Shown one piece after another: positions 3,020 to 45,973 of a DNA stretch of 64,000 bases. The first letter of the stretch is position 1, and every line of letters begins with the position of its first letter. The notes under the pieces were generated by a model. It was given only the letters and a program-made list of their open reading frames with translations, was not told where the DNA came from and searched no databases. A program made the translations under genes and the position numbers. Where the stretch lies: positions 3,567,511 through 3,631,510 of the forward strand of contig CP129490.1 in assembly GCA_030584085.1 (NCBI GenBank), read 5' to 3'. Source of the DNA: Melioribacteraceae bacterium. Its GTDB lineage: Bacteria > Bacteroidota > Ignavibacteria > Ignavibacteriales > Melioribacteraceae.

Positions 3020-4768
3020 TTATTTCAAAAGCAGCATTTTGCGCGTTTGTAAAATATTTCCGGCTGTTAGTTTATATACATATACTCCACTCGGAAGATC
3101 ACTCGCATCAAATTCTGTTTCATATTCTCCGGGTTGCATCGGTTTATTTAAGAGTGTTATTATTTCTCTACCAAGAATATCATAAACAATTAACTTCACA
3201 TTTGACGTCTCACGTTTCACACCTAACGGGATTGTAAACTTTATTGTCGTACTTGGGTTAAACGGGTTCGGATAATTTTGATGCAACACAAATTCATTGG
3301 GAATGTTTTTATTTTCATCTATATTATTTATTACGTCGGTAAAAATTCTTGCGTAATAAACATCTTGTTCTCCGTTAAATGTTCCTGCCCAAGCTAAATG
3401 AACTCCCTCATTATCGGAAACCATATCAAAATAATCGCCCATCTTTCTTTGAACCGGCCAACCGACATGTGGATCAAAACTCTCCTCGAGAAGATTTACA
3501 TTCGGATACCATGTTTGTCCGCCATCGACAGAAAATGAATAATATAATTCTGATAGGAAATCATTAGCTGGAGAATTCCTGGTATCTAGCCAAACAACAT
3601 CTATTCTGCCGTTCGGAGCAACCGATAATGTACCGAACCATTGATAATTAGTGTCACTTTCATCATCATTTACTCTTACCGGATCTAACCAAGTTTCACC
3701 TCCATCAGTACTTGCTACAACATAAATGTCTGCAGGATCACCTGTGATAGGATTTTTTACCGTTCCGAGAATATAAATATTACCACTATTAATTCCGTCC
3801 GAGTTATCACTTGCTATATTAATTTGCCCGGTTATACCGGAGGGATTTGGTCCGCCAAAATCAGGCAGTACACCGTTCATATTTACTTCAACCGGTTCCG
3901 AAAAAGTAACAGCGGAATCAGCAAACTTAGCATTTGTCGATTTAAGAAAAACAAATCTTTCGATAAAATTATCATCGGGAAAATAATAATCATACCCGCA
4001 AATAAGTACATCGCCATTTTTTGCAACAGCTAAAGTTCCCCAAAACGGTTCTTCCGGAATGTAAGAACAATCTTCAAAGGTCAATCCGCCGTCAACAGAT
4101 CTAGTGAACGAATAATCACAAATACTGTAAATTGCATTCCAGTATGCATAAATATGTCCGTTACTGGGATTATTGGTCCTATCGATTACCATCCATTGTT
4201 TATCTCCACCCTGTGCAAAAACACCTTCGTCCCAAGTCGCTCCGCCGTCGGTTGATTTATAAACATTACACCAATAATCATTACCTGCCGCCGTTAAACT
4301 ATTGTAATAAAAGTTACCTTCAGAATCGGAATCAAGAACCGGGTCCGATCTAAATACACCGGGTTCAATAACACCCGGGAAATTCCAGTTCAATCCACCG
4401 TTCGTTGTGAATGCATAACCGGCTTGCCTAAAACTATTTGTGATAATATCAAATTGTCGCCATCCGATTGCCATTTTATTTGCATCATTAAAATCGAAGG
4501 CTATCGACGGTTCATTAGCTGCATCGTTAAGAATATTCAATCCATTACTGCTTACATTTACTTGTGAAACAAATATTTTATCTGCGGAATAATGAAAAGG
4601 CAATGAGTAACTTTGCGATAATTTTGATTGAGAATATTTCCCTTCCTGCTTTTCATTGTGTTGTAATGATAAATTACTTTTTTCTTGTGCTGTTATGTTA
4701 ATAAGAAAAATTAGAGTGGCTGCAAAGAAAATAATAGTAGTGTTTTTTAAAAAGAAATGTTTGTGCAT
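3020..4768 (-). CDS. T9SS-exported sialidase/BNR-type beta-propeller protein
   Basis: 582 residues with an N-terminal signal (hydrophobic stretch about 8-27). The middle contains repeated Asp-box motifs typical of sialidase propellers: STDGGATW, SVDGGLTF, STDGGETW and SVDGGQTW. The last ~85 residues are a T9SS type A sorting domain (LHQNYPNPFNPSTTIKF, then VYDILGREI, and a KMLLLK end). It should be translocated across the outer membrane and attached or released. Whether it is an active sialidase is uncertain because Asp boxes alone do not prove catalysis; the arginine triad was not identified. Its sorting-domain DNA carries an in-frame GTGAAACGTGAGA-type repeat (3194-3222). It is upstream of the glycosidase gene in the same direction. 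Confidence 0.8.
   Translation of the reverse strand: MHKHFFLKNTTIIFFAATLIFLINITAQEKSNLSLQHNEKQEGKYSQSKLSQSYSLPFHYSADKIFVSQVNVSSNGLNILNDAANEPSIAFDFNDANKMAIGWRQFDIITNSFRQAGYAFTTNGGLNWNFPGVIEPGVFRSDPVLDSDSEGNFYYNSLTAAGNDYWCNVYKSTDGGATWDEGVFAQGGDKQWMVIDRTNNPSNGHIYAYWNAIYSICDYSFTRSVDGGLTFEDCSYIPEEPFWGTLAVAKNGDVLICGYDYYFPDDNFIERFVFLKSTNAKFADSAVTFSEPVEVNMNGVLPDFGGPNPSGITGQINIASDNSDGINSGNIYILGTVKNPITGDPADIYVVASTDGGETWLDPVRVNDDESDTNYQWFGTLSVAPNGRIDVVWLDTRNSPANDFLSELYYSFSVDGGQTWYPNVNLLEESFDPHVGWPVQRKMGDYFDMVSDNEGVHLAWAGTFNGEQDVYYARIFTDVINNIDENKNIPNEFVLHQNYPNPFNPSTTIKFTIPLGVKRETSNVKLIVYDILGREIITLLNKPMQPGEYETEFDASDLPSGVYVYKLTAGNILQTRKMLLLK
3194..3222 (-). repeat. GTGAAACGTGAGA-type repeat inside T9SS sorting domain
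   Basis: On the minus strand this stretch reads GTGTGAAACGTGAGACGTCA followed by AATGTGAA. It encodes VKRETSNVK in the loop between the IP and VYDILG parts of the sorting domain. A near-identical stretch sits at the same loop of another gene at 21993-22022. Sorting domains without it (genes at 8899 and 13666) have a loop about five residues shorter. Confidence 0.6.
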
Positions 4769-8898: not shown

Positions 8899-10428
8899 AT
8901 GAGAAAGATTATTGCAAGAGCAGTTATAATGTTTCTAATTGTCGCAACCGGAATTTTTATTGCGCGTTCATTTCGTGTAAACGAAATCCCAAATGGAAAT
9001 GTCAATACATGTGCAAACTGTCATGTTAGCTCGCTTGGCGGAGGCCCAAGAAATGCATTTGGGACCGAGGTTGAAAATAATTTTTTGGACGTGCCGGGGG
9101 CTTCAGGACATGTTTTGTGGGGTTCTCAATTAGCGGCACTGGATTCTGACGGAGATGGTTTTACTAACGGTGAGGAATTACAAGATCCTAACGGGACATG
9201 GACAACAGGAAGTTCTCAACCGGGAAATCCTGAATTTGTTACAAATCCCGGCGATCCTAACGATTTCCCCGTTCCGACAATCATTGTATCTTCACCAAAT
9301 GGCAGCGAAAACTACTCACCCGATCAACAAGTCGAAATTACATGGAAAAGTAACCTTGTAGCTAATGTATCCATTGAGCACTCAAGTGATAATGGTGGCA
9401 GCTGGAATGAGCTCACCCCCTCAACTGAATCCGATGGAAGTTTTAATTGGATAATTCCGAATATCTCTTCCACCCAAAATTTGATTAAAGTAAACGACCT
9501 TGATACAGACGAAAGCGATCAGAGCAATTCTACTTTTACAATATCCCAGCCGGTAAACCCCGAGCTTATGGTTACTTCCCCCAACGGTGGTGAAAATTGG
9601 GAAGCCGGTGCAGAGCAAACTATCACATGGATAAGTGCGGACATATCGTCTGTCTCGATTAGTTTTTCAACGAACAACGGTATTTCTTGGGATCAAATAA
9701 CTTCCTCAACTATTTCAGACGGAAATTATGATTGGACAATTCCAAATAATATTGAGTCCAACGAATGCAAGATAAGAATAAAAGATAATGACAGCGGTGT
9801 AGAAGATGAAAGCAACGAAGTTTTCTCAATCTTTATTCCGCTCAATCCACAAATTACTTTAATCACTCCTAACGGAGGGGAGGAATTAGAAGTTGGAACT
9901 CAATTTGAAATTACTTGGACCAGCACAGACATAACGGATGTATCGATTGAGTTCTCGAGTAATAACGGCGGAGTATGGAGTGAAGTCATTGCATCAACTG
10001 AATCCGATGGAAGTTTTGATTGGACAATACCCAATTTTCTCTCGGATGAATGCCTACTTAGGATAAGTGATTTGAATAGCCAAATCTATGACGAGAATGA
10101 TGCTCCATTCATGATTTATGATCCAACCGGTGTAGACGATGTAGTTGATCTAAAATTTGCTCTAAGCCAGAACTACCCGAATCCTTTTAACCCAACAACA
10201 ACAATCAATTTCGATTTAGCTGAGAAAAGTAATGTTGAACTGAAAATTTACAGCTTAAACGGTGAACTCGTTAAGACGATTCTAGACCAAACAATTAATC
10301 CGGGAAATCATCGGATAACCTGGGATGGTACAAATCAGTTTGGAAATTCCGTTTCATCCGGAGTTTATTTATACCGCTTGACGACAGATAAATTTATAGA
10401 TTCAAAACAAATGATATTAATGAAGTAA
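8899..10428 (+). CDS. T9SS-exported protein with CxxCH/temptin-like head and three Ig-like repeats
   Basis: 509 residues. After a signal segment (about 8-24) comes IPNGNVNTCANCHVSSLGG with GGPRNAFGTEV, which combines a CxxCH motif with the GGGxRNxFG pattern of temptin-like domains. Next is a calcium loop DSDGDGFTNGEE. Three repeats of about 95 residues follow, each built as xSPNGGExxxxxxxxxITW, then SISFSTNNG and DGSFDWTIPN (GPI-anchor/Kre9-like beta-sandwich repeats in bacterial cell-surface proteins). The C-terminal ~80 residues are a T9SS type A sorting domain without the in-frame repeat seen in other genes. It is probably a surface adhesive or haem-binding protein. A strong ribosome site (GGGGAGG) precedes ATG. 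Confidence 0.8.
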   Translation: MRKIIARAVIMFLIVATGIFIARSFRVNEIPNGNVNTCANCHVSSLGGGPRNAFGTEVENNFLDVPGASGHVLWGSQLAALDSDGDGFTNGEELQDPNGTWTTGSSQPGNPEFVTNPGDPNDFPVPTIIVSSPNGSENYSPDQQVEITWKSNLVANVSIEHSSDNGGSWNELTPSTESDGSFNWIIPNISSTQNLIKVNDLDTDESDQSNSTFTISQPVNPELMVTSPNGGENWEAGAEQTITWISADISSVSISFSTNNGISWDQITSSTISDGNYDWTIPNNIESNECKIRIKDNDSGVEDESNEVFSIFIPLNPQITLITPNGGEELEVGTQFEITWTSTDITDVSIEFSSNNGGVWSEVIASTESDGSFDWTIPNFLSDECLLRISDLNSQIYDENDAPFMIYDPTGVDDVVDLKFALSQNYPNPFNPTTTINFDLAEKSNVELKIYSLNGELVKTILDQTINPGNHRITWDGTNQFGNSVSSGVYLYRLTTDKFIDSKQMILMK

Positions 10429-21299: not shown

Positions 21300-22196
21300 A
21301 TGCTAATAAGAATCTTCATTATTTTGTTTATCATAACTGGAATCTTCGCTCAACCAGAATCAATTGAAGAGGTAAAAAAATATTATCCACTTCACATTGG
21401 AGATTATTGGGAATATGAAACCATAAGCAACGAGCCTGGATTAGCGGACTCTTCGTGGAAATTTTATAAGCTTGTTATAGGCGATACACTTGTAAACACA
21501 AAAAAATATTTTATTATAGAACAGGCCGAATTAAACAGCGCAGACAAACAATTTAGTTATTACCGAGTTGATTCAGTTAATGCCAATGTCTATCGTTTAC
21601 TTGGTTCAAGAGAAGAATTAGTAGATTCACTTTTTGCACAACTCAACGACACACTTTTATATTGTTACTATGTAAAATCATTTGAAGAAAAAGAAATCTT
21701 TAATGAACGACGATCAAGTCGTTTTGTTGATCAATTCTGTACAAGCAATACCGCTTATGATGGATATGAACTTACTAAAGGATTGGGATTAACATATTCT
21801 TATTATAATGAAGTGTTTTTATATTCCTTTTATGAATACACGTATTTACACTATGCAAAAATAAAAGGCGTAGAATATGGTATTAAAACAAATATAGAAG
21901 AGAAGAATACTTTAACGAATAAATTTGAACTTTCCCAAAACTACCCAAACCCATTCAACCCAACTACAAAAATTAAATTCTCAATTCCGTCAGATGTGAA
22001 ACGTGAGATGTCAGACGTGAAATTAATTGTTTATGACATTCTCGGTAGAGAAATAAAAACATTATTTAACAAGTCGATGCAGCCCGGTGAATATGAAGTT
22101 GAATTCGATGCAACTGGTTTACCAAGCGGGGTTTATTTTTATAGATTGAATTCCGGTAGTTTTAGTCAGACAAGAAAAATGGTTTTGCTTAGATAA
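21300..22196 (+). CDS. T9SS-exported protein of unknown function
   Basis: 298 residues with a signal peptide (LIRIFIILFIITGIFAQ). The middle ~180 residues are rich in Tyr, Ser and charged residues (YYPLHIGDYWEYETIS, YELTKGLGLTYSYY) and have no recognised family; similar short T9SS proteins of this clade begin with YPLxxGxxWxY. The last 90 residues are a T9SS type A sorting domain (FELSQNYPNPFNPTTKIKF ... SQTRKMVLLR). The domain loop contains the GTGAAACGTGAGA repeat at 21993-22022. No catalytic signature was seen. Confidence 0.8.
   Translation: MLIRIFIILFIITGIFAQPESIEEVKKYYPLHIGDYWEYETISNEPGLADSSWKFYKLVIGDTLVNTKKYFIIEQAELNSADKQFSYYRVDSVNANVYRLLGSREELVDSLFAQLNDTLLYCYYVKSFEEKEIFNERRSSRFVDQFCTSNTAYDGYELTKGLGLTYSYYNEVFLYSFYEYTYLHYAKIKGVEYGIKTNIEEKNTLTNKFELSQNYPNPFNPTTKIKFSIPSDVKREMSDVKLIVYDILGREIKTLFNKSMQPGEYEVEFDATGLPSGVYFYRLNSGSFSQTRKMVLLR
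21993..22022 (+). repeat. GTGAAACGTGAGA-type repeat inside T9SS sorting domain
   Basis: GATGTGAAACGTGAGATGTC followed by AGACGTGAAA encodes DVKREMSDVK in the loop before LIVYDILG. It matches the minus-strand stretch 3194-3222 at the same loop of another T9SS gene at nearly every base. Confidence 0.6.
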
Positions 22197-22261: not shown

Positions 22262-24190
22262 ATGAAAACGCTCGTTGCTTTATTCACTGCTTTATTAACT
22301 CTTTTTTGTGCTGACTTGTTCTCTCAGGTAAATTTCACTTCATCGAACTTGCCTATCATTGTTATAAATACAAACGGTCAAACAATTGTTGATGAACCAA
22401 AGCTAATGGCTGATATGGGAATTATTTATAACGGCGAAGGAGAACGGAATAATCTAGTCGATGAATTCAATCACTATAACGGTAAAATCGGAATAGAAAT
22501 AAGAGGTTCATCATCACAGCAATTTCCTAAAAAATCATATGCTGTTGAAACAAGAATTGATGAAGAAGAAGATTTAGATGTTTCTCTTTTAGGAATGCCC
22601 GAAGAAGCCGATTGGGTTTTGTACGCACCTTATTCCGATAAATCGCTTATTAGAAATGCTCTTATTTATAAACTCTCAAACGAAATTAACCGTTACACAA
22701 CAAGAACTAAGTTCGTAGAGTTAGTAGTAAACGACGAATATATGGGCATCTATGTTTTCATGGAAAAGATTAAACGAGATAAAAATCGAGTCGATATTAA
22801 AAAGTGTGAATCAAAAGATACATCGGGAACATCTTTAACCGGGGGTTATCTTTTTAAAATTGATAAAAGAGACGGAGCTAATACCGAAGGATGGGAATCC
22901 TCCTTCGTTCCTTTTGCAGGCGCATGGCAAAGAGTTTTTTATCAATACGATTACCCGAAAGAAACAGATATAATGCCGCAGCAAATTGATTACATTCAAG
23001 ACTTCATTTTTAATTTTGAATCAACAATGTACTTGAATAAATATTCAAATCCCTTTGACGGATATTATGATATAATAGATATAAATACATTCGTAGATTA
23101 TGTTTTCTTGAATGAATTCCCCCGAAATGTTGATGCTTACCGGCTTAGTACATTTTTATATAAAGATAGAGATGATATTAATCCGTTATTAAAAATGGGA
23201 CCGATCTGGGATTTTAATCTTGCCTTCGGAAATATCGATTATTATGAAGCTTGGGAAGATGACGGATTTCAAATTTATTATCCGATTCCTGATGATTTTT
23301 TCCAAAAACCTTTTTGGTGGGAAAAAATGTTTGACGATCCGGTCTTTGCTAATAAATTTGCGAAGCGTTGGAGTGATGTTAAATCAACAATATTCTCTAA
23401 GGAAAGAATCTTCGAAATAATTGATTCGTTAACCGTTCATATCGATGAGGCAAAAACAAGAAACTTTGAACGTTGGCCTGTGCTCGGAACTTATGTTTGG
23501 CCGAATAAATTTGTCGGAGAGACTTACGAATCCGAAATCCAATATCTAAAAAATTGGATTGACGCACGTTGGAATTGGTTTGATAATAATATTTCAACAG
23601 AATATTCTTCTATTGATTGGAAAGATCCTAATGAAGTTGTAATAAATATAGATGTCCACGAAGAAAAAATAATAAGCACTTCCGATTTTTATAATTCTTT
23701 AATTAATATAGATTCGTTGACTATCGTTGCCAATAATGAAAACGTGAATCTTAATCGGATGGAAAATAATTATTTGGTCTCATCAAGCATTTCCGGGACA
23801 TACAAATTAAAACTCGAGGGCTGGTATAATAACCAAAGAACTGAGTTGTCGTCATCTTATACTATTAATATCGGAGTAACTGGTGTAAATGATAAATTAT
23901 TACCGAAAGAATTTTCACTTGAACAGAATTATCCGAATCCGTTTAACCCAAGTACAACTATTAAATTCTCATTACCCGATGTAGGGACAACTCATGAGTT
24001 GTCCACACAATCCACTATAATTGTTTATGATATTCTCGGAAGAGAAATAAAAACATTACTCAACAAGTCAATGCAGCCCGGTGAATATGAAATAGTATTT
24101 GATGCATCCGATCTTCCAAGTGGAATTTATTTATATAGATTAACATCCGGCAATTTGATAGAAACTCGAAAAATGATTTTATTGAAATAG
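22262..24190 (+). CDS. T9SS-exported CotH-kinase family protein
   Basis: 642 residues. Signal peptide 1-21 (ALLTLFCADLFSQ). The CotH kinase domain covers about 30-440: IRGSSSQQFPKKSYAVET, KSLIRNALIYKLSNEI, YMGIYVFMEKIKRDKNRVDI and MGPIWDFNLAFGNIDYYE. CotH proteins are atypical protein kinases that phosphorylate secreted proteins; here the enzyme is exported. A beta-sandwich segment lies before the T9SS type A sorting domain (residues about 555-642, ending RKMILLK). A 20-base perfect palindrome lies in the sorting-domain coding region (23985-24004). Activity on extracellular substrates is inferred from the family. Confidence 0.9.
   Translation: MKTLVALFTALLTLFCADLFSQVNFTSSNLPIIVINTNGQTIVDEPKLMADMGIIYNGEGERNNLVDEFNHYNGKIGIEIRGSSSQQFPKKSYAVETRIDEEEDLDVSLLGMPEEADWVLYAPYSDKSLIRNALIYKLSNEINRYTTRTKFVELVVNDEYMGIYVFMEKIKRDKNRVDIKKCESKDTSGTSLTGGYLFKIDKRDGANTEGWESSFVPFAGAWQRVFYQYDYPKETDIMPQQIDYIQDFIFNFESTMYLNKYSNPFDGYYDIIDINTFVDYVFLNEFPRNVDAYRLSTFLYKDRDDINPLLKMGPIWDFNLAFGNIDYYEAWEDDGFQIYYPIPDDFFQKPFWWEKMFDDPVFANKFAKRWSDVKSTIFSKERIFEIIDSLTVHIDEAKTRNFERWPVLGTYVWPNKFVGETYESEIQYLKNWIDARWNWFDNNISTEYSSIDWKDPNEVVINIDVHEEKIISTSDFYNSLINIDSLTIVANNENVNLNRMENNYLVSSSISGTYKLKLEGWYNNQRTELSSSYTINIGVTGVNDKLLPKEFSLEQNYPNPFNPSTTIKFSLPDVGTTHELSTQSTIIVYDILGREIKTLLNKSMQPGEYEIVFDASDLPSGIYLYRLTSGNLIETRKMILLK
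23985..24004 (+). repeat. Perfect 20-base palindrome inside T9SS sorting domain
   Basis: GGACAACTCATGAGTTGTCC is identical to its reverse complement. It encodes part of VGTTHELSTQ in the loop between FSLP and VYDILG. Related copies occur at the same loop at 32365-32386 and 45767-45788. Confidence 0.85.
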
Positions 24191-32179: not shown

Positions 32180-35083
32180 TTATCGAAGCAAAATCATTTT
32201 TCTTGTTTTTATGTTGTTTCCATAACTCAAAGCATAAAAATAGACCCCGCTAGATAAACTTCCGGCATCAAATTCAATTTCGTAAGTACCTCCTCGCATA
32301 GGTTTGTTTAATATTGTTTTTATTTCTCGGCCAAGAATATCATAAACAACTAATTGTGTTTGTAGGAACAACTCATGAGTTGTCCCCACAGTGGGTAAAG
32401 TAAATTTAATTTTGGTTGTCGGGTTAAACGGATTCGGATAGTTCTGCTCAAGATTAAATGAATATTTTATTTGCTCATGTTCATCATTAATATCTGTAGT
32501 CTCGGAGAAGTCATCAGTTAAAATTTTTGTTATGAGATTTTTTACCGATTCTTGTTCCATATAATAAAGCGGGAAACTAAAGACGACCGTATTAAAATTT
32601 TGTGACAGATATTTAACTCCGACCGGTTTGTTATTATAACTTCCTTGAGGAGTTGAATCATCATAATCACTTCCGAAAAGATAAAACGATTCACTTTCTG
32701 AATTCGGGGAAATAACTTCTATACCGGCTAAATGGAATTGAGAATTAATATCTGTTTTTAATTGATCCGTTGATAAACCGGGATAACCTGTAAGTTCGGA
32801 CTGTGCATATCTGAATCTGGATAATAAACTGTAGCCGATCGAATCTACTTTAAAGTAATCATATAAAAAATCACCTTGCTCAAATGACGCTGAAGTTGCA
32901 GTAATTGATTCAAAAGTTTTGGAAGGGCGATATCCGGAATAGATAAAATTACCGCCAAAGTTTAAGTACTTTGAAATTTCTTGAGTAAATGATTTTGCAT
33001 TTTGATCTGTTTTATCATCACCGTACCAAATAATTGTTGAGTATGCACCGAGATCGGATAGATTAACTTTTCCCAATGTTTGCAAGTCGAACTCTTGAAA
33101 TGAAAAGCTATTTAGAAGCTCTTTATAAAAATCATCAACCATTTGATCGGTTGGGGAAAATAATCCGCCGTTTCCGTCGGCTGTTTCATCAACAAGTAAA
33201 ATTCCTTGATCTAAGGTGACGGCTCTTGCGGTATAAATGTTTTCACTTATACTTTCATTCCCATCGGTATCAACAGCTTTAATTAAGTATTGATAGTAAA
33301 CTCCGCTTTGAACGGTGTTATCAATATAGTCGGATGTGATTAACACTTCACCATTTAGTTTTACAAACTCCGCTTCGTTTTCTGCTGTTCGATAAATATT
33401 ATATCCCAAAAGATCATCTTCAGAATTTTGATTCCATGCTAAATTTATTGCAAACCAATTGGGTTCAACATATAAAACTTCAGGCTCGCGAGGAAGTGAC
33501 CGCGGGATGTTCGATCTTTCGAGCAGAGGAGACTCCAAACCATATTTATCAACCACGGAAACCCCAACAAAATACAGTTCACCTTCAATTAGGTTTTCTA
33601 AAAGGATTTGGTTTTCGGTTATGGCGTAAGAAGTATAATAATTACCTGATTCAGTCCCGACATAAATTTTGAACATATCAAAATCTTGTTCAAGATATTC
33701 ATTCCATTTAACCAATAATGAAGTACCGTTTCCTTTGTCAACAACTTCAAGTCCGTCTATCATTCTAGGTAATAGACTTATGTGAGCTAAACTTGCAGCC
33801 GAACCTTTAATTACTTCTGCAGCATACCCGACATCACAATAAATTAATAAATCTTCATCGGTATGTATTGTAGGGATTTGAGTTGTTTCTTCAAAATATA
33901 TTGCTCTAATTCCACGTTCATAGAAACAGTAACTATCCGAAGTTTGTTTATTCAGCAATCCCCGGGTACCTATAACGCCGGAATATTTATTCACATTATC
34001 AAGAGCGATATCGGTATAAGCCTCGGTGGCACGGTAAGGGTGAACATAAACATCAACGTATTGTTTTTCGGGAGGATTGTAGGCAATCATATCGTGATTT
34101 ACCATTAACCGGACATTAACATTATTATCAACTGATTTCTGAGCTTCAAATTCACCACCGCTTCCAGCTGGCCCATGCTCTTCGGCAGCAAAAGTTACAA
34201 ATCTTATATTTACTTTTGGCTTGAAATTATTGAGCATAAATGTGCGGGCCGTTTCAAGAACTGCGGTTGTTCCGCTTGCATTGTCATCTGCTCCCGGTGC
34301 CGGTAATGTGGAATCGCCTTCCATAATCTCGTAAGTGATTGAATCGTGATGCCCTGCGAATATTATTACTTCATCGGTTTCATTCTGCGCCGGAAGAGTT
34401 GCTACAACATTTGTTTGAAGCATTCCGTTACGTGAATAAAATGTGTCGAGTTTTACTTCTTCAAAACCCATTGCTAAAAATTGATTTTTTATCCAATCAG
34501 CAACTTCAAATCTTATTGGATGACCCAAGAATCTTGTACCAAAATCTTCAAGACTTTGTATATAGTATCTAACTTGATTTGAATCGATAGAATTAACAAT
34601 CGGTTGAATAATTTGATCAAGATATTCGTTATTTGCCTTGTTGTAAATTGTTTTTTCATTTCTATAAATCGGAAGCTGCGAATCAAAATTAATAACTCTA
34701 ATTCCTTTTATTCCCAGGAATGATTGCGGTACATCTTTTACAATAGAGTGTTCGATGGTTTCGTAAACAACATTCGTCAATGATCTTTTTGCAGAATTTT
34801 TTTTCCAAACAACTAAGCTGTATGAATTGTCCGAATCCGTTTTGTCCAATTCAACAAACCTAACATCAAAAGCTTTCAACTTATTTCTCTTATCATCATT
34901 AACCAGCGTAATAAGATCATTTTGTGATTGTAAATAAATGGGAAGATTGAGTGATTCGACATAATTTAATTTTGCTTGATCTGCCAAATCGATTTTAACC
35001 AACGTGAAGTTATGATCTTGAGAAAATACGAGTAAGGAAAACAATAAAATCAAAACTGTTTTTTTAATCGTAATTGTTGTCAT
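32180..35083 (-). CDS. T9SS-exported M28 peptidase with FnIII domains
   Basis: 967 residues. Signal 1-21. The peptidase domain at about 160-430 has M28 motifs: IFAGHHDSI, APGADDNASGTTAVLE, TFAAEEHGPAGSG, MVNHDMIAY and IPTIHTDEDL. Two fibronectin III-like domains follow (MIDGLEVVDKGNGTSLLVKW and EPNWFAINLAWNQ), then a further beta-rich part and a T9SS type A sorting domain (LEQNYPNPFNPTTKIKF). It is a secreted metallo-aminopeptidase placed outside the cell. A variant of the palindrome (32365-32386) sits in the sorting-domain loop. Confidence 0.92.
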   Translation of the reverse strand: MTTITIKKTVLILLFSLLVFSQDHNFTLVKIDLADQAKLNYVESLNLPIYLQSQNDLITLVNDDKRNKLKAFDVRFVELDKTDSDNSYSLVVWKKNSAKRSLTNVVYETIEHSIVKDVPQSFLGIKGIRVINFDSQLPIYRNEKTIYNKANNEYLDQIIQPIVNSIDSNQVRYYIQSLEDFGTRFLGHPIRFEVADWIKNQFLAMGFEEVKLDTFYSRNGMLQTNVVATLPAQNETDEVIIFAGHHDSITYEIMEGDSTLPAPGADDNASGTTAVLETARTFMLNNFKPKVNIRFVTFAAEEHGPAGSGGEFEAQKSVDNNVNVRLMVNHDMIAYNPPEKQYVDVYVHPYRATEAYTDIALDNVNKYSGVIGTRGLLNKQTSDSYCFYERGIRAIYFEETTQIPTIHTDEDLLIYCDVGYAAEVIKGSAASLAHISLLPRMIDGLEVVDKGNGTSLLVKWNEYLEQDFDMFKIYVGTESGNYYTSYAITENQILLENLIEGELYFVGVSVVDKYGLESPLLERSNIPRSLPREPEVLYVEPNWFAINLAWNQNSEDDLLGYNIYRTAENEAEFVKLNGEVLITSDYIDNTVQSGVYYQYLIKAVDTDGNESISENIYTARAVTLDQGILLVDETADGNGGLFSPTDQMVDDFYKELLNSFSFQEFDLQTLGKVNLSDLGAYSTIIWYGDDKTDQNAKSFTQEISKYLNFGGNFIYSGYRPSKTFESITATSASFEQGDFLYDYFKVDSIGYSLLSRFRYAQSELTGYPGLSTDQLKTDINSQFHLAGIEVISPNSESESFYLFGSDYDDSTPQGSYNNKPVGVKYLSQNFNTVVFSFPLYYMEQESVKNLITKILTDDFSETTDINDEHEQIKYSFNLEQNYPNPFNPTTKIKFTLPTVGTTHELFLQTQLVVYDILGREIKTILNKPMRGGTYEIEFDAGSLSSGVYFYALSYGNNIKTRKMILLR
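32365..32386 (-). repeat. 22-base palindrome inside T9SS sorting domain
   Basis: On the plus strand GGAACAACTCATGAGTTGTC followed by CC: self-complementary over 22 bases with one mismatch pair; the inner 16 are perfect. It encodes VGTTHELFLQ at the same loop as the palindrome at 23985-24004. Confidence 0.8.
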
Positions 35084-44027: not shown

Positions 44028-44167
44028 AGTCATCACATTTATATTAAACAAAGTTGATTAGATGCCAAGTAATTTCAATTGATTCAACACATGATTTCTT
44101 TATGAATTAAAATTAAGAAAAAGATTTTATACATTTGTTAAAACCGAATAATAAAGAAAGAGTCCTG

Positions 44168-45973
44168 ATGAGAAGAATACTACTAATCCTTTTATTTACA
44201 AGTTTAATTGCTGCACAAGATAGAATTTTTATTGACGAAAATTTTGATGATTGGTCTGACGTGACTACCATGCACGAAGATCCGATTGGAGACAACACAC
44301 CAGGTGCCGAGTTTGATTTTGGAAATCTATATATAACAAACGATGACGAGTATATTTATTTCCGAATTCAGACAACTGAAAAAATTGTTCTGGTTAATGG
44401 AAATTATATGACTTTGTACATCGATTCGGATAATAATCCATCAACGGGCAAATCAATAGACGGAATAGGTGTAGAAATCGAATTTACATTCGGCACAAGA
44501 CGTGGGAAAAGTTATATAGGAGGGTCATCTACAATTTATCACGAGAATATAGGATTTATAGGCTCACCTACATTTTCTGCAAATGATTTTGAGTTTGTTT
44601 TAAGAAGAGATGCTCAAATATCCGGAACTCAAGTATTTCAAAGCAATACGATAAAAGTAAAATTGTTCGGATATGTATCTTCTTCATTGGTTGATTATGA
44701 AGATAAGATACCGAACGAAGGCGGATTCACCTATACATTTCAATCAGGTGAAGTTGATCCGGTGCCAACTTATTCAATTAACAAAACTGATCCCGGTTAT
44801 TTGAGAATAATGGCATACAATATTGAGCGAGATAAAATAACTGATGACACACCGGAAGTTCAACAAAACTTTAGCAATGTGTTTTCTACTTTACAGCCGG
44901 ACATAATTGGTTTCAGTGAAGTTTATTCATCTTCGGCACAAGCAGTTGCAGATAGAGTTGAAAATTATCTTCCTTCTTTAGAAGGTCAGACTTGGTATAA
45001 CAAAAAACTTACGGGCTATGATGTTGTATTAGTGAGTCGATTTATAATCAGAGATAGTTTCCCAATTGAAACAACTCCTTATGCTCACAATTCATCAACC
45101 GCATTCCTTTTAGATCTTCGTCCAAAATATGATTCGGATATGTTGGTTGTAGTTGCTCATCCAAAATGCTGTTTGACTGATGGAAGCGAAGACACAAAAC
45201 GCCAAAATCAATTTGATGCGATCATGGGTTTTATCAGAGATGCAATGAATGATGGGGGAGTATTAACTATTCAACCGAACATTCCGATTGTTATTATGGG
45301 AGATATGAATCTTGTCGGAGATTCGAGACAATACAATACTTTAATTACCGGCGATATTTTTTATAACAATACTTATGGCGATGACTTTGCGCCGGATTGG
45401 GACGGTAGTAATTTTGATGATTCAATTCCCTTTGTTAATAAAACTGCTATGACTTATACAACGAACACCGGAAGTTATCCACCGGGAAGACTTGATTATA
45501 TTGTCTATTCAGGTTCGGTAATGGAAGAAGTAAATAGTTACATCTTTAATACAAAAACATTGAGTCTCGATGAATTGAATCAATTCGGGTTGAGTGAAAA
45601 CGATACTGAGGTTTCCGATCACCTTCCTGTTGTTGCTGATTTCGATTTGTCACCAATAACGGATGTAAAAAAAAAAGATGAGATCCCAAATAAATTTGGA
45701 TTAATGCAAAATTACCCGAATCCTTTTAATCCAACGACAAAAATTAATTTTACGATTCCCGCCGTTGGGACAACTAATGAGTTGTCCCTACAAACCAAAG
45801 TAATTGTTTATGATATTCTCGGTAAAGAAATAATAACTCTTCTAAATGAACATCTACAACCCGGCAATCACGAAATTGAATTTAACGCAGAAGACTTACC
45901 AAGTGGAATTTATTATTACCGGTTAGCAGTCGGTGAATTTTCGTTAACTAAGAAAATGGTTTTGTTGAGATAG
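44168..45973 (+). CDS. T9SS-exported endonuclease/exonuclease/phosphatase-family protein
   Basis: 601 residues from ATG 44168 (a TTG at 44135 opens the frame further). Signal 1-17 (ILLILLFTSLIAAQ). Residues about 20-175 resemble a CBM9/DOMON-like sandwich (FDDWSDVTTMHEDPIGDN, then DDEYIYFRIQT). The EEP domain at about 215-485 shows LRIMAYNIERD, IGFSEVY (Glu), VIMGDMNLVGD, LDYIVYSGS and SDHLPVVADF, the metal and catalytic set of phosphodiesterases and nucleases. A T9SS type A sorting domain ends it. The sorting-domain loop holds a 22-base near palindrome (45767-45788). A secreted nuclease or phosphoesterase is likely. Confidence 0.88.
   Translation: MRRILLILLFTSLIAAQDRIFIDENFDDWSDVTTMHEDPIGDNTPGAEFDFGNLYITNDDEYIYFRIQTTEKIVLVNGNYMTLYIDSDNNPSTGKSIDGIGVEIEFTFGTRRGKSYIGGSSTIYHENIGFIGSPTFSANDFEFVLRRDAQISGTQVFQSNTIKVKLFGYVSSSLVDYEDKIPNEGGFTYTFQSGEVDPVPTYSINKTDPGYLRIMAYNIERDKITDDTPEVQQNFSNVFSTLQPDIIGFSEVYSSSAQAVADRVENYLPSLEGQTWYNKKLTGYDVVLVSRFIIRDSFPIETTPYAHNSSTAFLLDLRPKYDSDMLVVVAHPKCCLTDGSEDTKRQNQFDAIMGFIRDAMNDGGVLTIQPNIPIVIMGDMNLVGDSRQYNTLITGDIFYNNTYGDDFAPDWDGSNFDDSIPFVNKTAMTYTTNTGSYPPGRLDYIVYSGSVMEEVNSYIFNTKTLSLDELNQFGLSENDTEVSDHLPVVADFDLSPITDVKKKDEIPNKFGLMQNYPNPFNPTTKINFTIPAVGTTNELSLQTKVIVYDILGKEIITLLNEHLQPGNHEIEFNAEDLPSGIYYYRLAVGEFSLTKKMVLLR
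45767..45788 (+). repeat. 22-base near-palindrome inside T9SS sorting domain
   Basis: GGGACAACTAATGAGTTGTC followed by CC: nine-base arms around AATG, one mismatch pair. It encodes VGTTNELSLQ before VYDILGKEI, the same place and reading as palindromes at 23985-24004 and 32365-32386. Confidence 0.8.

Follow-up and report, generated by a model that had tools for sequence, protein, structure and literature searches.

Double-foot palindromic repeats in the loop of T9SS sorting domains of a Melioribacteraceae genome and their probable link to RAYTs

The window analyzed here, a stretch of 64,000 nucleotides from a Melioribacteraceae bacterium (GenBank assembly GCA_030584085.1, contig CP129490.1, positions 3,567,511 to 3,631,510), lies within a single 3.74-Mb contig. 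It encodes three proteins with a palindromic DNA element in frame within their TIGR04183/PF18962 T9SS sorting domains (Table 1). The perfect 20-base palindrome GGACAACTCATGAGTTGTCC, which the first-pass annotation had reported in the CotH coding sequence, was recovered at 23985-24004, and the near copies in two other T9SS genes (32366-32385 and 45768-45787) have one mismatch each. The peptides are encoded in frame as had been proposed, namely VGTTHELSTQ in CotH, VGTTHELFLQ in the M28 peptidase and VGTTNELSLQ in the Exo_endo_phos protein. As a chance control for the three copies, 100 shuffles produced no match to the 20-base core. This core is part of a full element of 28 bp with the structure GTAG-core-CTAC (GTAGGGACAACTCATGAGTTGTCCCTAC). 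The 28-bp form is perfect in other copies in the genome, and one foot is decayed in each window copy. The window copies and the perfect form are predicted to fold as single-stranded DNA hairpins of -7.4 to -11.4 kcal/mol.

Genes named as lacking the element (8899 and 13666) have a loop of 8 residues compared to 15 in the carriers, by both regular expression and alignment, which agrees with the earlier estimate of about seven residues. The expectation that the extra length equals one element failed, as the loop gain is 21 bp for a 28-bp element. The insert might thus have replaced some of the loop DNA, or the loop might have been trimmed. Two further window genes have a long loop too, holding a VKRET or VKREM repeat and no clear palindrome.

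Table 1. Palindromic elements, other loop inserts and host genes in the window (positions within the 64,000-nucleotide stretch).
Feature	Coordinates	Strand	Remarks
GTAG palindrome (double-foot REP, VGTTHEL family), CotH T9SS loop	23981..24008	+	in frame; 3' foot ACAC for CTAC
VGTTHEL-family palindrome, M28 peptidase T9SS loop	32362..32389	-	one arm base and one foot base altered
VGTTHEL-family palindrome, Exo_endo_phos T9SS loop	45764..45791	+	GTTG for GTAG, one central base altered
Host gene: CotH kinase-like protein, C-terminal T9SS type A sorting domain	22262..24190	+	
Host gene: peptidase M28 protein, T9SS type A sorting domain	32180..35083	-	
Host gene: endonuclease/exonuclease/phosphatase-family protein, T9SS type A sorting domain	44135..45973	+	
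Other insert, same T9SS loop: GTGAAACGTGAG-type repeat, VKREMSDVK	21996..22022	+	gene 21300-22196
Other insert, same T9SS loop: GTGAAACGTGAG-type repeat, VKRETSNVK	3197..3223	-	gene 3020-4768

With up to three mismatches allowed, the genome carrying the window (the host genome) contains 11 copies of the core, five exact, six with one mismatch and none with two or three, and a reversed control found none. Six copies lie in T9SS type A loops. The search for coding and intergenic copies called for by the first-pass annotation places the other five outside genes, one of them directly preceding a likely start codon. The wider pattern GTAGGG-N10-40-CCCTAC occurs at 18 places in the host genome, compared to three in the reversed control. 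Full copies are scattered over the genome, yet 12 of the 18 lie in T9SS loops. At the other six places the longest open frame spans at most 63 codons, and no copy falls in another long frame. Three of these six (1507046, 2471165 and 2717063) lie 31 to 78 bases past the end of a T9SS domain match.

The T9SS sorting domain is abundant in the host genome, with 132 matches. Two hits near opposite contig ends (G000:C1:6407-6658 and 3737823-3738074) have the same length, score and frame length, which suggests overlapping ends of a circular chromosome. Among the 85 of 132 domains that were read (the 47 unread ones include four long ones near 1117938, 1146332, 3338579 and 3396981), 56 have a short loop, 22 a GTAG palindrome of one of five kinds, six a VKRET-type repeat and one a different loop. 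The palindromes comprise nine of the VGDEYIRPL type, six VGTTHEL, five VGTSRDL, one VVDAKF and one decayed VETPNRES, with VGTSRDLSL, VGDEYIRPL and VVDAKFAST as examples of the other encoded peptides. An inverted-repeat score of at least 8 was reached by 21 of the 22 GTAG loops, by none of the six VKRET loops (scores of 4), by none of the 56 short loops and by 0.4% of shuffled long host loops. The VKRETSN repeat (GTGAAACGTGAGACG-type) is found in six of the 85 domains, the two listed in Table 1 and those at L104, L106, L107 and L111. In the host DNA examined, four short forms of the repeat have exact matches only at T9SS-like places.

On a domain tree built with the loop removed, insert-bearing domains cluster, with 8 changes compared to 23.8 when shuffled; this tree has 84 rows (a truncated duplicate, the 86th row, and one odd domain were left out), 67 usable columns and mostly weak forks. 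The kind of insert does not visibly track domain descent. Insert kinds require 15 changes over the 28 insert-bearing rows, and their placement is no better than random (shuffled mean 16.5, with 67 of 300 shuffles as low). Four paralogues with similar flanks in one gene cluster carry VGDENI, VKRET, VGDEYI and no insert, respectively. The CotH tail was modelled with AlphaFold (7 window domains, mean pLDDT 79). In the model, residues 36-45, which the palindrome encodes, fall between strands 26-33 and 44-52, and the block 31-40 has a pLDDT of 67, the lowest except for the first ten residues. The palindrome-coded residues are hence predicted to occupy a hairpin loop.

Several orthologues of the host genes are without the insert. 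The CotH orthologue of G002, a genome of the same genus, is 74% identical and has a short loop, as do those of G005, G032, G057, G014, G008 and G017. Other GTAG palindromes are present in the orthologues of G013 and G022, and the G033 orthologue has a long loop with no clear palindrome. The CotH tail was not found in G029, the CotH matches L154-L164, L166 and L167 stop before the tail, and no domain was found at L153. Relatives of the M28 peptidase mostly have short loops as well; exceptions are an 11-residue loop in G013, a VRGEMTK insert at one G057 locus and a G065 relative (L172) whose T9SS loop holds another hairpin repeat, CCCTCTCCTTACCAAGGAGAGGG, at this site. In G002, the loop QVASIE(N/K)V recurs in several T9SS domains (L144, L169 and L178) with almost the same DNA, a pattern resembling homogenization within the genome.

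Across the order, a palindrome pattern anchored on the FNP codons matched in 99 of 164 genomes, with many matches plainly due to chance. Matches within T9SS domains are mostly lineage-specific palindromes, present in many genera and directly following the [IV]P of the domain. The predominant palindrome is GTAGAGACGTCATATATGACGTCTCTAC in G065 (11 of 13 places in the genome), GTAGAGACAAGGCATGCCTTGTCTCTAC in G045 (8 of 8), GTAGCACAGAATACTATTCTGTGCTAC or a one-base variant in G013 (7 of 7) and GTAGAGACGGGATATATCCCGTCTCTAC in G032 (5 of 5, one altered). In the fetched loops, palindromes start 9, 12 or 15 bases from the loop start, so insertion points differ by whole codons; the offset in G013 is 10. 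All 65 GTAG...CTAC loops from 25 genomes are read in one phase, a count that excludes G013, whose loops the regular expression missed because another phase is used there; most loops from outside the host genome were fetched for matching the GTAG pattern, and only the host-genome counts are free of that choice. These 65 loops represent 40 different palindromes in 13 groups, and 33 of the 40 have a second phase that is open and was never seen in use. The palindromes are mostly 27-29 bp long and the net gain over the short loop ranges from 9 to 27 bp, indicating that some loop DNA gave way to the insert or that trimming came after. The loops compared include no filled and empty pair in which the difference is exactly one element. 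Outside the order, the matches listed from a phylum sample of 395 genomes contain no T9SS-loop palindrome by eye and one other palindrome (G399), within the limits that the FNP anchor sets to this test.

Palindromes of the same family extend beyond the order, with records from cyanobacteria, Chloroflexi, Bacteroidota, CPR and others among the matches listed. At 80 such loci, 100 GTAG palindromes were examined, of which 71 lie outside open frames of 150 codons, 24 inside such frames (several of which look spurious) and five in T9SS domains, two of these in a record matching G157. Some in-frame palindromes from other phyla (L424, L388, L425, L383 and L355) lie in genes that, judging by their motifs, look like those for AroE (with two inserts), IleS, GltX, SufD and a TraD-like protein. 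A RAYT with an in-frame insert was found in Candidatus Roizmanbacteria (L398) and used as a query, which recovered relatives in 80 of the 164 genomes of the order. A first test seemed to speak against a link to RAYTs, as PF01797 loci (L028-L057, L108-L110, L333 and L342-L352) were almost without nearby palindromes (1 of 30 at a laxer threshold). This apparent lack arose because the PF01797 loci belong to other Y1 genes; with the L398 RAYT as query the outcome was reversed. Of 30 RAYT loci of the L398 kind, 13 have palindromes, compared to 1 of 30 other Y1 loci, although the query itself carries an insert and loci with inserts were thereby favored in the 30-locus set. In a further 20 RAYT stretches, chosen mostly from genomes with T9SS palindromes, 11 have a palindrome inside the gene or within 500 bp. 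The RAYT of G012 (C31:261105-261581) has the VGTTHEL palindrome on both flanks as well as inside, and its protein reads SNHFHGIITFDNNVGTTHELSLQ, including VGTTHELSLQ. None of the palindromes flagged at a set of G012 loci lies in a T9SS loop.

RAYT and T9SS palindromes of the same genome resemble each other, with a similarity of 0.821 compared to 0.707 when permuted (7 of 5000 permutations; 13 genomes). Three genomes (G025, G045 and G157) share an exact palindrome between RAYT and T9SS domains, which is weaker evidence (222 of 5000 permutations). Several genomes (G004, G032 and G143) have RAYT palindromes unlike their T9SS family. The host genome has one RAYT hit of the L398 kind, with degenerate palindromes of another sequence after the HuH motif, none of them intact. 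Regularly spaced palindrome copies, at about 118 and 200 bp, occur at G072:C1:150811-151066 and 2006188-2007014 and resemble tandem REP clusters.

These features recall the TnpA_REP/RAYT subclass 2.4 defined by Quentin, Siguier, Chandler and Fichant in 2018 (PMC6006769), whose REPs, according to passages of that paper, can be 'double foot' and can sit within the transposase gene with the frame unbroken. The 5' GT[AG]G and 3' C[TC]AC feet are present, as GTAG...CTAC in the genome copies and with a decayed foot in each window copy. REPs lie on both sides of the RAYT in the relatives G012, G015, G044 and G055, an arrangement absent at the host-genome RAYT. A REP lies in frame within the RAYT between the HuH and Y motifs in G012, G045, G025, G050, G157, G004 and others, the match in G157 having two stops. 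A PNHxH frame (with some L for I, F or V) was found in 42 of 50 RAYT loci, 36 of them with WQ; the eight loci lacking the frame include G012, which reads SNHFH together with WQ. For the Y motif, the looser YIxxNP is found in 32 of the 42 frames and the exact YIxNNP in few. Matches of the RAYTs to NF047646 scored 57.6, 63.7 and 49.6 bits, below the cut-off of 80. The palindromes are likely double-foot GTAG REPs, that is putative non-autonomous elements of subclass 2.4 RAYTs; apart from the exact Y motif, which is ambiguous, the features tested agree with this assignment, which is based on motifs and REP layout. Shared with the elements in the relevant passages of PMC6006769 are the GTAG/CTAC ends, an NHxH and WQ RAYT, and REPs both flanking the gene and in frame after the HuH motif. 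The elements described here differ in that, across genera, they also occupy one particular loop of a secretion domain with many copies. A search by term found no Ignavibacteria in PMC6006769, and sorting domains are unmentioned in its relevant passages.

Variation within a species was found in G157, a genome assigned to the same species as the host genome. The CotH loop of G157 holds GTAGGGGACGAATATATTCGTCCCCTAC in place of the VGTTHEL palindrome of the window. In a gapless comparison over 350 bp, a single 41-base block (window 23977-24017) contains 24 differences, and the remaining 309 bases contain 3. The block has equal length in both genomes and extends 4 bases to the left and 9 to the right of the palindrome. 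This extra width points to gene conversion as the mechanism of the CotH event, with a different sorting domain as the source. The sequence comparison thus suggests a within-species exchange of the CotH palindrome by short-tract gene conversion. No exact donor for the tract was found in the host and G157 sequences examined, the best candidate matching 56 of 62 bases. Of 38 G157 domains read for this comparison, 15 had no partner and 23 formed pairs, with the M28 gene outside the comparison. Among ten long-loop pairs, eight are identical (including the Exo_endo_phos loop), one has point differences and less certain orthology, and one, CotH, is swapped. Three of the 13 short-loop pairs differ, by substitutions, one of them in comparison to a likely paralogue. 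The gene upstream of CotH was considered as a second swap and rejected, since the gene bodies differ and the tail alone aligns; in this T9SS tail (window 21935-22196, compared to about 9700-9980 of G157 L314) the loop insert differs too.

In the reading that we consider probable, REPs mobilized by subclass 2.4 RAYTs gain entry to a tolerant hairpin loop, and sorting domains then pass them on and exchange them, probably through short-tract gene conversion. The RAYT would move REPs as single-stranded hairpins, and most landings in genes would be lost. This loop, which joins two strands in the early part of the sorting domain, may accommodate some ten foreign residues, and each palindrome tested has one open reading phase or more. 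Because the genome has about 130 domain copies, a palindrome that has landed once could spread to other copies, and replace the palindromes there, by short-tract gene conversion. Proteins would remain full length and the REP would gain a safe, multi-copy niche. A tentative extension, which we hold to be somewhat short of likely, is that the loop serves as a standing exchange site. REPs would then spread and replace one another among about 130 tails by gene conversion with little need for the transposase, a selfish element would have the secretion signal as its replicating habitat, and the tail loops of secreted proteins would differ from strain to strain.

The clustering of insert-bearing domains on the domain tree could also stem from one ancient insertion followed by gene duplication and domain shuffling. 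Hairpin-templated mutation would then keep the arms matched, with no new REP entry, and the sister palindromes GGACAACTCATGAGTTGTCC and GGACAAGTCGCGACTTGTCC do differ by paired changes. This scenario is unlikely, given unlike palindromes across genera at start offsets of 9, 12 and 15 (and 10, in another phase, in G013), similar palindromes found both outside genes and at RAYT loci, and a CotH palindrome that differs as one block between genomes of the same species. It is very improbable that selection acts on the hairpin as an RNA or DNA feature, for mRNA stability, attenuation or translation pausing, with the peptide as a by-product. The predicted folding energies would fit such a role, and REPs are thought to work as RNA elements according to part of PMC3733652. 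However, 57 of the 85 domains do without the insert (56 short, one other), as do CotH orthologues of several genera, the window copies are partly decayed, and six long loops hold a repeat that forms no such hairpin. That the loop peptide, common to several proteins, is an ordinary conserved feature with palindromes by chance has next to no probability, considering the empty shuffles, the copies outside genes, the similar palindromes in records from cyanobacteria, Chloroflexi and CPR and the different peptides that one gene encodes at this loop in two genomes of a species; the pattern expected of such a feature, the same residues in distant genomes with no copies between genes, was looked for and was absent. 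The entry and exchange of RAYT-linked REPs agrees with the proposal of the first-pass annotation that mobile palindromes are tolerated in an exposed loop. Copies outside genes, orthologues lacking the insert, the hairpin-loop model and the within-species loop difference support this proposal, and mobility, which the annotation had inferred, is supported through the distribution of copies and the swap.

Rickettsia palindromic elements are spread over unrelated genes, and we know of no RAYT link for them. Elhai and colleagues reportedly described in 2008 small dispersed repeats of Nostoc punctiforme as mobile hairpins of 20-30 bases with paired changes, for which we know of no protein-domain niche. 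The resemblance to the Rickettsia elements noted in the first-pass annotation stands insofar as both are palindromes carried in frame within genes of probably working proteins, as also described in part of PMC3733652, a likeness by description and not by sequence. The closer match is with RAYT-linked double-foot REPs, and identification as a Rickettsia-type element was rejected in favor of an analogy only. Passages of Di Nocera, De Gregorio and Rocco 2013 (PMC3733652) report intragenic GTAG and CGTC REPs, including differing REPs at about the same recB site in two Xanthomonas species. The presence of REPs within genes is shared with those systems. There, however, the REPs described lie in scattered genes, many for DNA synthesis or repair, and the GTAG tag is described as unpaired, whereas here GTAG pairs with CTAC and the elements occupy one domain family in many copies, with lineage-specific families and a within-species swap. 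Among the open-licence papers listed in literature searches, none on REPs or palindromes in T9SS sorting domains was seen. REPs within genes and within RAYTs were already known; the recurrent niche in a sorting domain and the swap within a species appear to be new.

REPs are common small bacterial repeats. To our knowledge, their movement is hardly ever caught. One loop, present about 130 times in a genome, would record REP arrivals in the form of lineage-specific families, decayed copies and a within-species swap, and could serve as a place for measuring REP turnover. Exact sequence ties a RAYT kind to its REPs in some genomes (G012, G025, G045 and G157). Where T9SS or RAYT proteins contain VGTTHELSLQ-like stretches, these are probably traces left by DNA elements and not signs of a conserved protein function. 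The T9SS sorting-domain loop thus offers an example of a selfish repeat living within proteins without breaking them.
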